From a virus, in IMG/VR virus record IMGVR_UViG_3300009104_001126, positions 1 to 55,930 of that record: a stretch of DNA of 55,930 bases. One strand, written 5' to 3'. The notes under the pieces are model-generated. The model saw only the letters and a list, made by a program, of their open reading frames with translations. It was not told the DNA's origin and did not search any database. The position numbers were made by a program, and so were the translations under genes. Numbering within the stretch: the first letter of the stretch is position 1; every line of letters starts with the position of its first letter. This document shows positions 6,378-20,140 of this stretch, one piece after another.

Positions 6378-6487
6378 TGGCTCTGGGGGTTGGATTCGAA
6401 CCAACACATCTTTGATCTAGATTTGATCGATCAATCAAAGATAATACGCAAACAACGTACCGCGTCTTCCTGTTTCGCCACCCCAGA
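6378..6487 (-). tRNA. tRNA with asparagine-type identity (anticodon GUU) and an oversized variable arm
   Basis: Reading the - strand from 6487, a full cloverleaf folds: acceptor TCTGGGG/CCCCAGA, U8-G9, a 3-bp D stem GCG/CGC with GG in its loop, anticodon stem GTACG/CGTAT with loop TTGTTTG (anticodon GUU), T arm GTTGG-TTCGAAT-CCAAC, G73 and an encoded CCA. U1-A72, G73 and GUU match known bacterial tRNA-Asn identity. Against this, the D arm looks class II (Leu-like), and the variable region is about 38 nt with a perfect 9-bp stem (ATCTTTGAT/ATCAAAGAT), longer than any ordinary class II arm. Position 37 is U rather than the usual purine. Directly downstream of an AsnRS-like gene. Confidence 0.8.
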
Positions 6488-6505
6488 GTAAATCCATCCC
6501 TCTGT

Positions 6506-7354
6506 TTAATTGTTCAATGCACTGATGAGTCTGGTTAGTCCTATTCCACCACCGTATCTTGGAAAAAAATCTAAATTTAAAAATTCTTCCAATTCTTTTT
6601 CTACTCTCTCTTCGCCAAATAATTTAAATAATAATTTAGCATATCCTCCGTCAGAAATAGTGTAGAATAGTTCTCTCATTTCCTCTACATCGGCAGATCT
6701 TTCTGCAGATCCAATTGTTTCCATTCCTCCTATAATAACATCACATTTGTTAGCTACATTGCCTTCTTTTTTCATATTCCAAAAGGGGGATGTGGAATAA
6801 GGAAATCGAGTTATAAATCCTACTCCGGTGGGATGTGAATCAGATATCATCTGTTCGTGCTCGTGGTCTAATTCTTCGCAATTAAATTCTGAACACCACT
6901 GGCGATAATCCTTTTCAGGAAACGGTCCAGCAATGCCCCCGACTTCTCCTATCAAACCCAAATGCTTAATCAGATCTCTTTCCATTTGTAACAAGTCTCG
7001 AAAATTACCTGGTGCTTCAAATTCAAACATAGGAAAGATGACTTCGTGTCTTCCTTCAACTATATTTGGTTCTTGTCTATAAGATGTTGAAACACAGAAA
7101 CAACCCGGTAGATCTGGATTGTTGAGTAATTCATATTCGAGCCACATCTGACCAGTTTGAGGAAGTGGCCATATGATATCATTATATGTGTACGTTGCGA
7201 CGGTTGTGGGATCTTCGCAAGCAGCTAATATGGATAATCTGTTTTGGGTATGAACTTCGAGAAAACCTCGGGAATGAAAAAAATCACGGAGACTAACGAC
7301 GACATTGTCAAAATCAGTCGGTGTGATTAGACTAGTCAGGTTGCTCCTTTCCAT
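6506..7354 (-). CDS. Minimal class IIb aminoacyl-tRNA synthetase, AsnRS-like catalytic core
   Basis: The 282-aa product is only a class II catalytic core. Features in order: a motif 1-like segment (HSRGFLEVHTQNRL, residues 27-40, without the invariant proline), LPQTGQMWLEYELL (63-77, like the AsnRS SGQLYLE stretch), motif 2 SYRQE...GRHEVIFPMFEFE (91-113, with Arg93, Glu95, Arg102-His103), GGMETIGSAER (209-219, like the AsnRS G-GEI-GGSQRE region), and motif 3 RYGGGIGLTRL (266-276, Arg275). No N-terminal OB-fold anticodon-binding domain is present. Archaeal AsnA-type asparagine synthetases have a similar truncated core and are the main alternative. The co-directional tRNA 18 bp downstream favours tRNA aminoacylation. 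The start ATG lies behind a late-type promoter. Confidence 0.8.
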   Translation of the reverse strand: MERSNLTSLITPTDFDNVVVSLRDFFHSRGFLEVHTQNRLSILAACEDPTTVATYTYNDIIWPLPQTGQMWLEYELLNNPDLPGCFCVSTSYRQEPNIVEGRHEVIFPMFEFEAPGNFRDLLQMERDLIKHLGLIGEVGGIAGPFPEKDYRQWCSEFNCEELDHEHEQMISDSHPTGVGFITRFPYSTSPFWNMKKEGNVANKCDVIIGGMETIGSAERSADVEEMRELFYTISDGGYAKLLFKLFGEERVEKELEEFLNLDFFPRYGGGIGLTRLISALNN

Positions 7355-7386: not shown

Positions 7387-7394
7387 TATTTATA
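7387..7394 (-). promoter_or_regulatory. T4-late-type promoter TATAAATA for the synthetase-tRNA unit
   Basis: The exact T4 late -10 element TATAAATA lies on the - strand, 32 bases upstream of the synthetase start and followed by a leader. In T4 such elements are read by gp55-programmed RNA polymerase with gp33 and the sliding clamp. This suggests late expression of the synthetase and tRNA, opposite in timing to the sigma-70-type promoter facing the other way. The assignment is by motif and position only. Confidence 0.5.
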
Positions 7395-17128: not shown

Positions 17129-19629
17129 AATTTTATACGAACGTTCATCAAATAGGTGATCATGTTTTAGTAAGGGGATATGAAAACGGTCAACGCTTTG
17201 ATGATCGTATTGAGTATCATCCTACAGTTTATATTCCTACCAAAGATAAATCAAAATATAAATCTATTGATGGAAAATCTCTGGCTCCTGTTAAACCAGG
17301 GACTATTAAAGAGACAAGAGAGTTTATTCGAAAATATGATGGAGTAGAAAATTTCCAAATCTACGGAATGACTGCTTGGAGGTATGGTTATATTTACGAA
17401 AATTATCCCAAAGATAGAGGAATAGATTATGACTATTCTCAATTGTGTGTTGCAAGTATTGATATAGAGGTTGCATCAGAACATGGGTTTCCCGATCCAA
17501 TTTCTGCTTCAGAAGAAATTCAAGCCATAACCGTTGGAGCAAATAAAAAATATTATGTATTTGGATGTGGTGAATATAATAATACAAATCCAGAAGTTGA
17601 ATATTTTCAATGTGCAGATGAGAATCATTTAGTTCAAGAGTTTCTTTCTTTTTGGGAAAAGTTAGCACCAGATATTATTACAGGCTGGAATATTCAAGGA
17701 TTTGATATTCCTTATTTGGTTAATAGAATTTCCAGATTGTTCGATAAAAAGATGGTTAAAAGATTATCTCCTTGGAGATTGGTTAATGAGAGATCAACAA
17801 CCTTCAGGGGAAGAGAAACAATCTTTCATGATATTATCGGAATGTCTGTGATCGATTATATCGATGTATACAGAAGAAATTCACCACCAGCTGAAAGTTA
17901 TAGGTTAGATTATATTGCATCTGTTGAATTGGGTGAAAAGAAATTATCCTTTGAAGAATATGGAAACCTTCATACTTTGTATAAAGAAAATTATCAATTG
18001 TTTATTGATTATAATATTAAGGATGCTCAGCTCGTAGATCGATTAGAAGAAAAGAAAAAATTGATAGAGATGGTAGTTGCTTTGGCTTATGAAGCAAAAG
18101 TAAATTATCAAGATACATTTGGAATGGTTATGATGTGGGAGGTTATTCTCGCGAACGATCTCATGAATAGAAACATCATTGTCCCACCTAAAAAAGACAA
18201 TACAAAAAATGCTGCATATACCGGAGCCTATGTAAAAGAAGTTCAAGCAGGGTTGCATAATTGGGTTGTTAGCTTTGATTTAAATAGTCTATATCCTCAC
18301 TTAATCATGCAATACAATGTTAGCCCTGATACAATTTTAACAGGTGTTACAGAGCAATGTCGAGTCGATTCTTTATTGAATAAGCAAGTTGATTTACAGA
18401 AATATTATGATAAAGATATTGTTATTGCACCTAATGGTCAGGGATTCAGAAAAGATATTCAAGGATTCTTACCTAGGTTAATGCAGGAGAAATATGATAA
18501 TCGAGTTATCTTCAAAAAGAAGATGATTGATGCTAAAAAGAAATTAGAGAAAGCAACTGATCCAGATGAGATAGAAAGATTAAAGAAAGAAGCAGATTCG
18601 TTTGGTAATAAACAGACTGCTATGAAGTTAATGCTTAATAGTGTTTATGGAGCATTTGGGAATCCATATTTTAGATTTTATGATCTAAGAATTTCTGAGG
18701 CTATTACATTAGGAGGGCAGCTCAGTATTCGCTGGGCAGAAACTGTGGTCAATAATTATCTTAATCAAGTTATGGAGACAGAAGAAGAAGATTATGTTCT
18801 TGCATCGGATACTGACTCCCTCTATATTACTTTAGAAAAATTAGTAACCAAAGTGTTTCCAGAAAAACCAGATGTTGATAAAGTTATTAATTTTTTAGAT
18901 AAGGCATGTGAAGATAAGCTTCAAGAAGTAATCGATAATGGATATTCAGACTTAGCGAAATATATGAATGCATATGATCAGAAGATGTTTATGAAAAGAG
19001 AATGTCTTGCTGATAAAGGTATTTGGACAGGCAAGAAACATTATATTCTCAATGTTCATGATAATGAGGGAGTAAGGTATACTAATCCACGACTCAAAGT
19101 TATGGGCATTGAATCTGTTAAATCTTCAACACCAACATCTTGTAGGGACAAGTTGAAAAAATCTTTTGATATTATTATCAATAAAGATGAATCTGCCATA
19201 CAAGAATTTATTGCAGATTTTAGAGAACAGTTTGAAAAAGAACCTATCGAGAATATTGCCTTTCCTAGATCTGTTAAAGGAATTGAGAAATATAACGGAG
19301 GTACAACTTTATATGCCAAGGGAACACCGGTGCATGTAAAAGCAACTCGTTTATATAATCATTATCTAAAAGAAAAGAAATTACATAATAAACATCCTTT
19401 TATTCAAGAGGGTGAGAAAATCAAATTTGTTTATTTAAAACAACCAAATCCTATCAGGGATAGCGTTATAGCTATGATGGAAGGTCTACCTGAAGAATTC
19501 GGATTACATGATTACATTGATTATGATAAACAATTTGAAAAGTCATTCAGGGGACCTTTGAATGAAATATTGAAAGTAATTGGATGGTCTCCGGAGAAGA
19601 AAAGCTCTTTGGAAGCCTTTTTTATATGA
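17125..19629 (+). CDS. 43: Family B DNA polymerase (T4 gp43-like)
   Basis: The 834-aa product has a 3'-5' exonuclease domain with ExoI SIDIEVAS (about 111-118), ExoII ITGWNIQGFDIPYL and ExoIII YNIKDAQLVDRL, and polymerase motifs A SFDLNSLYPHLI (about 383-394), B KLMLNSVYGAFGN and C ASDTDSLYI (about 559-567). A C-terminal clamp-binding tail (SSLEAFFI) resembles T4's. Length is slightly below T4 gp43 (898 aa), as in cyanophages. Replicates the phage genome with gp45, 44/62 and helicase/primase. Confidence 0.97.
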   Translation: MKFYTNVHQIGDHVLVRGYENGQRFDDRIEYHPTVYIPTKDKSKYKSIDGKSLAPVKPGTIKETREFIRKYDGVENFQIYGMTAWRYGYIYENYPKDRGIDYDYSQLCVASIDIEVASEHGFPDPISASEEIQAITVGANKKYYVFGCGEYNNTNPEVEYFQCADENHLVQEFLSFWEKLAPDIITGWNIQGFDIPYLVNRISRLFDKKMVKRLSPWRLVNERSTTFRGRETIFHDIIGMSVIDYIDVYRRNSPPAESYRLDYIASVELGEKKLSFEEYGNLHTLYKENYQLFIDYNIKDAQLVDRLEEKKKLIEMVVALAYEAKVNYQDTFGMVMMWEVILANDLMNRNIIVPPKKDNTKNAAYTGAYVKEVQAGLHNWVVSFDLNSLYPHLIMQYNVSPDTILTGVTEQCRVDSLLNKQVDLQKYYDKDIVIAPNGQGFRKDIQGFLPRLMQEKYDNRVIFKKKMIDAKKKLEKATDPDEIERLKKEADSFGNKQTAMKLMLNSVYGAFGNPYFRFYDLRISEAITLGGQLSIRWAETVVNNYLNQVMETEEEDYVLASDTDSLYITLEKLVTKVFPEKPDVDKVINFLDKACEDKLQEVIDNGYSDLAKYMNAYDQKMFMKRECLADKGIWTGKKHYILNVHDNEGVRYTNPRLKVMGIESVKSSTPTSCRDKLKKSFDIIINKDESAIQEFIADFREQFEKEPIENIAFPRSVKGIEKYNGGTTLYAKGTPVHVKATRLYNHYLKEKKLHNKHPFIQEGEKIKFVYLKQPNPIRDSVIAMMEGLPEEFGLHDYIDYDKQFEKSFRGPLNEILKVIGWSPEKKSSLEAFFI

Positions 19630-19654
19630 TAAATATGTAATAAGGTTATTCGTT

Positions 19655-20140
19655 ATGAAAGATATGAAAAAATTATGGTATAGCTGGCAGGATATGTGTT
19701 CGGATGTAAATCAACTCTGTCGTGATATTGTATTGGATAATTTTAAGCCCGATGTAATTGTCGGTCTTTCCCGTGGCGGGTTAACGCCCGGTGTTATGAT
19801 GTCTCATTGGTTGAAGAAACCATTTAAGCCTGTGAAAAGCGCTCTCCGTGATTTTCCTGAATGGGAAGACTATTTGCCACGGAAGACAGATAAGAGAGTG
19901 TTAATACTAGATGATATATGTGACAGTGGTGAAACATTTGAACGTATATCAGAACATATCAAAAGGCCTCGAGAGAACATGCCTTTACAACTTCAGTGTG
20001 ACGTAAGATTTGCATCACTCTGGTGGAACAATGAGGTAAAATTTAAACCTCATTATTACGTTAGGGAAGAAGCCAAAGATGCTAATAATCTTTGGGTAGT
20101 TTTTCCATGGGAATCATGGTGGAACGCTCCTAACAATTAA
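19655..20140 (+). CDS. Type I phosphoribosyltransferase
   Basis: ATG 19655 is preferred; the longer frame runs inside gp43 and lacks a ribosome-binding site. The 161-aa product has the PRPP-binding motif VLILDDICDSGET (about 82-94), preceded by VIVGLSRGGLTPG (about 39-51), as in xanthine/hypoxanthine phosphoribosyltransferases. It would salvage purine bases using PRPP. The C-terminus is Trp-rich (VVFPWESWW), like Gpt-type enzymes. Substrate not determined. Confidence 0.85.
   Translation: MKDMKKLWYSWQDMCSDVNQLCRDIVLDNFKPDVIVGLSRGGLTPGVMMSHWLKKPFKPVKSALRDFPEWEDYLPRKTDKRVLILDDICDSGETFERISEHIKRPRENMPLQLQCDVRFASLWWNNEVKFKPHYYVREEAKDANNLWVVFPWESWWNAPNN

Follow-up and report, generated by a model that had tools for sequence, protein, structure and literature searches.

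A phage gene pair of an AsnRS-like enzyme and a tRNA, linked to pyrimidine synthesis, and a possible route from asparagine to dihydroorotate

De novo pyrimidine synthesis is usually presented with a single entry, from carbamoyl phosphate and aspartate. Asparaginyl-tRNA synthetase (AsnRS), a class IIb enzyme, belongs to translation, where it binds the side-chain amide of asparagine through Glu-233 and Arg-377 (PMC7387524). Bacterial Asn identity consists of the anticodon and G73, and the U1-A72 pair is the determinant that GatCAB uses in converting Asp-tRNA to Asn-tRNA (PMC9976931, PMC4206432). Here we analyze a viral locus that carries elements of both systems, an AsnRS-like enzyme followed by a tRNA with the full Asn identity set, in IMG/VR record IMGVR_UViG_3300009104_001126 (55,930 nt, hereafter the window). 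The window is a T4-like fragment whose other genes include ThyX, ribonucleotide reductase, dUTPase and a family B DNA polymerase. A Na+/phosphate cotransporter domain (PF02690, 5856-6353) adjoins the pair and may be an auxiliary metabolic gene, and a phosphoribosyltransferase-domain protein (PF00156, E 8e-13) lies at 19580-20140.

The enzyme and the tRNA in the window

The enzyme gene occupies positions 6506..7354 of the minus strand and encodes 282 amino acids, for which we propose an asparagine-dependent, dihydroorotate-forming activity. Pfam tRNA-synt_2 (PF00152, the core of the class II D, K and N synthetases) covers residues 17–280 (E 6e-17), and neither Pfam nor the predicted structure contains a domain outside this catalytic core; the N-terminal OB-fold anticodon-binding domain of AsnRS is absent from both. 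The AlphaFold2 model (pLDDT 90.2, pTM 0.89) has AsnRS 1x54 with Asn-AMP as its closest solved PDB fold (E 6e-18), with AspRS and LysRS ranking next. The PHROGs match, phrog_29758 (E 1e-111), is a family of unknown function.

Alignments and the fold match both recover the class IIb motifs. Motif 2 (R93 to E113; RQE...GRHEVIFPMFEFE; SYRQE…RHEVIFPMFEFE) lies at 7016..7078 and motif 3 (G268 to R275, GGGIGLTR) at 6530..6553, both on the minus strand, with the ATP-binding arginines and glutamates of the two motifs retained and a Thr in place of the usual Glu before the Arg in motif 3. Profile alignments against AsnRS (PMC7387524) put E73 (QTGQMWLE, minus-strand codon 7136..7138) and R219 (ETIGSAER, minus-strand codon 6698..6700) in the columns of the amide-binding Glu and Arg, so that both amide-pocket residues are present; the Asp-binding Lys of AspRS is missing. 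The minus-strand codons 7211..7219 encode C46-E47-D48 (...SILAACEDP...), where E47 falls in the column of the AsnRS EGG-motif Glu, C46 is invariant across the enzyme family and D48 nearly so. Sequence, fold and amide pocket all mark the core as AsnRS-like.

The enzyme falls short of the cut-off of each curated model compared. It scores 27.5 bits against the AsnRS model TIGR00457 (curated cut-off 342.6), 19 bits against the asparagine synthetase A model NF005055 (NCBIfam cut-off 389), and far under every cut-off for AspRS, LysRS and EpmA. All asparagine synthetase models fell far below cut-off; membership of the AS-AR/AsnA family was rejected on these scores, and grouping with AsnA-type enzymes, which the preliminary description of this DNA had raised against its own reading, was not seen. 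In a quick tree whose deep order is not firm, all members of the family cluster together, set off by a very long branch from AsnRS and from the outgroups AspRS, LysRS and EpmA; most tRNA-bearing phages fall into one group, which also includes Pasteurella atlantica and a Rhodospirillaceae.

The tRNA begins 18 nt after the enzyme stop codon and spans 6381..6487 of the minus strand (107 nt), with an encoded CCA end read from the sequence at 6378..6380 of the same strand. Rfam RF00005 scores it at 38.3 bits (cut-off 29), and our model R1, which has the window's tRNA among its building sequences, scores the identical locus L006 at 85.1 bits; ARAGORN, run on the window, missed the tRNA at 6381–6487. 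Its fold beats all 200 of 200 shuffles (z −3.3). The anticodon GUU (6451..6453, minus strand) is followed by U37 at 6450, and the identity positions are U1 at 6487, A72 at 6382 and G73 at 6381. The D arm (TGGCGAAA..GG….GACGCG) is of the tRNA-Leu type, and a variable region of about 38 nt (6406..6443, minus strand), highly variable among homologues, folds into a long hairpin. The molecule combines a Leu-type D arm and a class II variable arm with G73 and GUU, not the A73 and Leu anticodon of tRNA-Leu. It keeps U33, but its U37 and 38-nt variable region depart from the elongator tRNA-Asn pattern of A37 and a short variable loop. We propose that it is a dedicated Asn carrier.

Much of the preliminary description holds at this level. 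The window sequence, Pfam and Rfam agree with it on the coordinates of the unit, the strand and the 18-nt gap; the catalytic core lacking an anticodon-binding domain, its likeness to AsnRS and the Asn determinants of the tRNA were all read correctly, as was a late-type promoter, a T4-type element (TATAAATA, 7387..7394, minus strand) that lies 32 nt upstream of the ATG and is the sole minus-strand copy in the window. As corrections, position 37 is U in place of A, and the D arm belongs to the tRNA-Leu type.

A conserved pair in viruses

The enzyme has relatives in P-SSM2, P-SSM5 and P-SSM7, where the annotation reads 'tRNA ligase'; others come from uncultured phages of 484 and 735 kb and from several hundred IMG/VR contigs at the least. 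Narrow viral scans with two huge-phage proteins as queries returned 2 and 0 loci, and none of the plasmid records searched carries the gene. We collapsed 302 viral loci into 157 groups at 95% identity and used the 146 with at least 400 nt of downstream sequence for the tRNA count. A same-strand tRNA lies 3' of the enzyme in 128 of these 146 non-redundant loci, at a median gap of 7 nt. The enzyme and tRNA genes are thus a conserved pair, in line with the dedicated pairing proposed earlier. Homologues that stand without the tRNA, which the preliminary description had likewise named as counting against its reading, do occur in bacteria and in one huge-phage group, whose members have no adjacent special tRNA.

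The Asn identity elements are nearly fixed among 119 distinct tRNAs. The anticodon is GUU in 117 and GUC in 2, U1-A72 is kept in 117 and G73 in 118. The anticodon loop is looser: position 33 is U in 96 (81%), A in 11, C in 11 and G in 1, so that U33 is lost in 23 (19%), and position 37 is U in 93 (78%), A in 13 (11%), G in 10 and C in 3. Four-base decoding by a GUUU tRNA was also weighed and set aside, given the variation at position 37 and at U33. In an alignment of 30 homologous tRNAs, 585 of 585 stem cells are paired and 17 of 20 pairs covary. Model R1 also picks up tRNA-Leu genes of phages and bacteria, with lower scores. Judged by sequence, the tRNA body of the family is of the tRNA-Leu type, with a variable arm that is short in some homologues: total length runs from 74 to 108 nt, and the arm from almost none (in the 74–76-nt tRNAs) to 38 nt, against a constant background of GUU, U1-A72 and G73. 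Since arm length is not conserved, the arm is not a shared recognition element, and the earlier suggestion that it takes over from anticodon recognition was rejected.

Several loci show further features. The two related phage tRNAs with the Asp anticodon GUC (L070, L229) retain U1-A72 and G73, and because they keep U1-A72, amidation to Asn after aspartylation would still be allowed. At L091 the tRNA directly after the enzyme has shrunk to two fused acceptor halves, by deletion or assembly error. The enzyme and tRNA genes are often separated by a small ORF (L015, L016, L022, L028-L038); these ORFs share a repeated IPxYxxGxGIH segment, several have a CxxC...H zinc-finger-like stretch, and the product is possibly an accessory protein. 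GenBank places tRNA-Asn PSSM2_199 of P-SSM2 (AY939844.2; L002:3814-3899) at 164094-164179, whereas its actual place is 162083-162168, immediately 3' of the enzyme gene. Outside the phages, a Pithovirus LCPAC304 protein (BFVD A0A481Z9R2), named aspartyl/asparaginyl-tRNA synthetase, is 43% identical with a TM-score of 0.89.

The enzyme is linked to pyrD, pyrE and pyrF and replaces PyrB

Pyrimidine genes recur around the enzyme in phages. The fetched flanks, many of them short, contain pyrD, pyrE or pyrF in 18 of the 157 viral clusters, and of 22 pyr gene matches, 18 are no more than 1.5 kb away from the enzyme (binomial p 2e-5). One locus reads pyrD–enzyme–pyrE (L295), two have pyrD 65 bp upstream of the enzyme (L250, L253), and two have pyrF and pyrE directly after the tRNA (L020, L192), in L020 convergent to the enzyme-tRNA pair. 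Pfam matches confirm the pyrF genes of L017 and L049 as well as the pyrD genes of L115 and L295; pyrE in the viral loci is short and was identified mainly by similarity to bacterial operon copies. The genomes of P-SSM2 and P-SSM7 also encode a pyrE that exceeds the cut-off, at a site away from the enzyme.

The same association extends to cells. Scanning the genomes of bacteria and archaea yielded at least 125 relatives, a few of which are phage contigs binned into MAGs; the bacterial ones are 52–61% identical, come from more than 100 bacterial genomes and often lie next to pyrD, pyrE or pyrF, with a pyr gene inside the fetched flanks at 27 of 80 genome-contig loci. Pfam-confirmed arrangements include pyrD / enzyme–pyrF–pyrE on the complete chromosome of Pasteurella atlantica, enzyme–pyrF–pyrE–pyrD–prs in Bandiella and Midichloriaceae, and enzyme–pyrEF–pyrD in a Myxococcota member; in Bacteroidota, pyrD–enzyme adjoins pyrEF.

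The first steps of the classical pathway are largely missing from these genomes, many of which are draft MAGs in which gene absence can reflect assembly gaps. PyrB exceeds its curated cut-off in 1 of 29 enzyme-bearing genomes versus 14 of 14 controls, and the lone case (G015) is an incomplete copy at the end of a contig from a possibly mixed MAG. CarB is found in 3 of 29 versus 14 of 14, PyrC_multi in 1 of 29 versus 11 of 14, and PyrC_dimer in 0 of 29 versus 1 of 14. Both PyrC models fail to detect PyrC in most enzyme-bearing genomes, including the complete Pasteurella atlantica and Midichloriaceae; several Bacteroidota and a Myxococcota have PyrC-like matches below cut-off (198-261 bits), so PyrC loss is not certain there. 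The later steps persist, with PyrE in 26, PyrF in 22 and PyrD in 18 of the 29; all three are present in 16 of 18 non-Patescibacteria genomes versus 1 of 11 Patescibacteria (G008 only). Patescibacteria loci such as L140, L104 and L118 have the enzyme mostly without a recognizable pyrD/E/F set. Within Saprospiraceae (120 genomes), PyrB exceeds its cut-off in 106 of the 117 genomes that lack the enzyme and in 0 of the 3 that carry it (Fisher p 0.0013). The enzyme is hence linked to pyrD/E/F and replaces PyrB and usually CarB, and we are highly confident that it belongs to pyrimidine synthesis.

A full-length AsnRS is encoded separately in many of the bacteria that carry the enzyme. The enzyme therefore does not act as their AsnRS, and the idea that it is the cell's only AsnRS was rejected. 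Nor does the special tRNA have a bacterial counterpart adjacent to the enzyme: R1 found none at bacterial loci, where the three or four high scores are phage-like contigs binned into MAGs, and its top genome-wide bacterial matches (at most 72 bits) resemble ordinary tRNA-Leu genes. With no linked tRNA in bacteria or huge phages, the enzyme there may need none, or may use cellular tRNA-Asn.

A candidate route from asparagine to dihydroorotate

Asparagine already supplies five of the six ring atoms and the carboxylate of dihydroorotate. The formulas agree as well: Asn (C4H8N2O3) plus CO2 minus H2O gives C5H6N2O4, dihydroorotate. Aminoacyl adenylates react with HCO3- to N-carboxyanhydrides without an enzyme (PMC4262824). 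Given the formula match and this adenylate chemistry, an AsnRS core, making Asn-AMP or holding the Asn of Asn-tRNA, is a plausible ancestor of a dihydroorotate synthase. We infer asparagine as the substrate and dihydroorotate as the product, an origin from Asn that we consider somewhat probable. The AsnRS-derived core would bind asparagine and ATP and form L-dihydroorotate from asparagine and bicarbonate, a single enzyme replacing CarAB, PyrB and PyrC, after which PyrD, PyrE and PyrF would lead to UMP. The alpha-carboxylate of Asn would be activated first, the alpha-amine would capture CO2 in an N-carboxyanhydride-like manner, and the side-chain amide nitrogen would then attack the carbamate carbonyl, so that the six-membered ring closes and the carboxylate is released. 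Such an attack by an amide nitrogen is chemically unusual.

In phages the activated form would probably be Asn carried by the adjacent tRNA, a tRNA-Leu body fitted with the complete Asn identity set and a poor decoding loop. A37 is the t6A site in tRNAs reading ANN codons; with A37 nearly always missing and U33 lost in a fifth, the ribosome is a doubtful reader of GUU, and the enzyme, having no anticodon-binding domain, is an unlikely one. We infer that GUU is read by a host synthetase: because the phage enzyme has no domain for this, the tRNA would probably be charged by host AsnRS, or by AspRS plus GatCAB. The carrier role itself we regard as finely balanced, at or just short of an even chance. 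That the two genes form a pyrimidine-synthesis module, in which the enzyme makes dihydroorotate and the phage tRNA is probably the Asn carrier, seems to us an even call. Slightly more tentative is the broadest reading, that phages and bacteria share a second widespread dihydroorotate route, in which an AsnRS-derived enzyme uses Asn (in phages, Asn-tRNA) and bicarbonate and the dedicated phage tRNA no longer serves mainly translation.

The enzyme could serve the same pathway independently of tRNA, forming Asn-AMP and closing the ring on free Asn and CO2, with the phage tRNA serving otherwise, for example standing in for tRNA-Asn that the pathway drains, or sparing it. The bacterial and huge-phage members without a linked tRNA, the intact ATP-binding motifs 2 and 3 and the unaided reaction of CO2 with aminoacyl adenylates (PMC4262824) all fit; the tight viral linkage with its fixed Asn identity elements does not, and the odd positions 33 and 37 suit a carrier better than a decoder, which leaves this version unlikely, if a serious contender. 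Alternatively, the enzyme might act at another point of the pathway, for example by converting Asn or Asn-tRNA to an equivalent of carbamoyl-aspartate, with dihydroorotase still required. The sub-cut-off PyrC-like matches in several Bacteroidota and a Myxococcota genome speak for this, but most enzyme-bearing genomes have no PyrC detectable by either model, and we think this quite improbable.

Two further readings keep the enzyme closer to its relatives. A private AsnRS-tRNA pair, charging Asn for late phage translation or for escape from tRNA-cutting defenses, is what the preliminary description favored, and the AsnRS-like core and pocket, the GUU/G73/U1-A72 tRNA and the late promoter are all consistent with it; the 81% of tRNAs that retain U33 may still decode. 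GUU is fixed, however, although the enzyme has no anticodon-binding domain, the t6A site A37 is present in only 11%, homologues sit beside pyrD/E/F in place of PyrB, and many enzyme-bearing bacteria keep a full AsnRS. Simple decoding and cleavage evasion are accordingly improbable, and what survives of that description is its further suggestion that the charged tRNA is used outside the ribosome. An asparagine synthetase of the AS-AR/AsnA kind, raising Asn supply with the pyrimidine linkage secondary, has in its favor that AS-AR is likewise an AsnRS paralogue without an anticodon-binding domain and that the enzyme matches AS-AR models weakly. The distance to the NCBIfam cut-off, a pocket with the AsnRS Glu and without the Asp-binding Lys, and a loss of PyrB and CarB that extra asparagine would leave unexplained make it very improbable.

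If the module reading is true, a start from asparagine with one enzyme would amount to a new pyrimidine pathway and would explain UMP synthesis in genomes that have PyrD/E/F and lack CarAB, PyrB and PyrC. It would add a case of an aminoacyl-tRNA synthetase, perhaps with its tRNA, recruited from translation to metabolism, and would give hundreds of marine contigs a phage auxiliary metabolic module that makes pyrimidines independently of the host's first steps. Our literature search, which covered open papers in PMC, found nothing relevant on tRNA-dependent or AsnRS-linked pyrimidine synthesis.

Among described systems, the enzyme shares with AsnRS the catalytic fold, motifs 2 and 3, the amide-binding Glu and Arg and the best fold match. 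It differs in lacking the anticodon-binding domain, in having CEDP for the EGG loop and Thr for Glu in motif 3, and in its linkage to pyrimidine genes and very long branch apart from the aminoacyl-tRNA synthetases. Archaeal AS-AR and bacterial AsnA are likewise stand-alone class IIb cores at work in metabolism, but the enzyme is far under their family cut-offs, has an AsnRS-type pocket and is linked to a tRNA and pyrimidine genes. EpmA (PoxA/GenX) is another class IIb core that stands alone and has no tRNA-charging role; it is derived from LysRS, modifies EF-P and is only weakly similar to the enzyme. CarAB-PyrB-PyrC would share with it the product, dihydroorotate, and the place before PyrD/E/F, whereas the enzyme is an unrelated single protein whose proposed sources are Asn and bicarbonate instead of carbamoyl phosphate and Asp. 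With Glu-tRNA reductase (HemA) and GatCAB transamidation it would have in common the use of an aminoacyl-tRNA as an activated metabolic substrate, with a different amino acid, fold and product, and with phages that bring their own tRNA.
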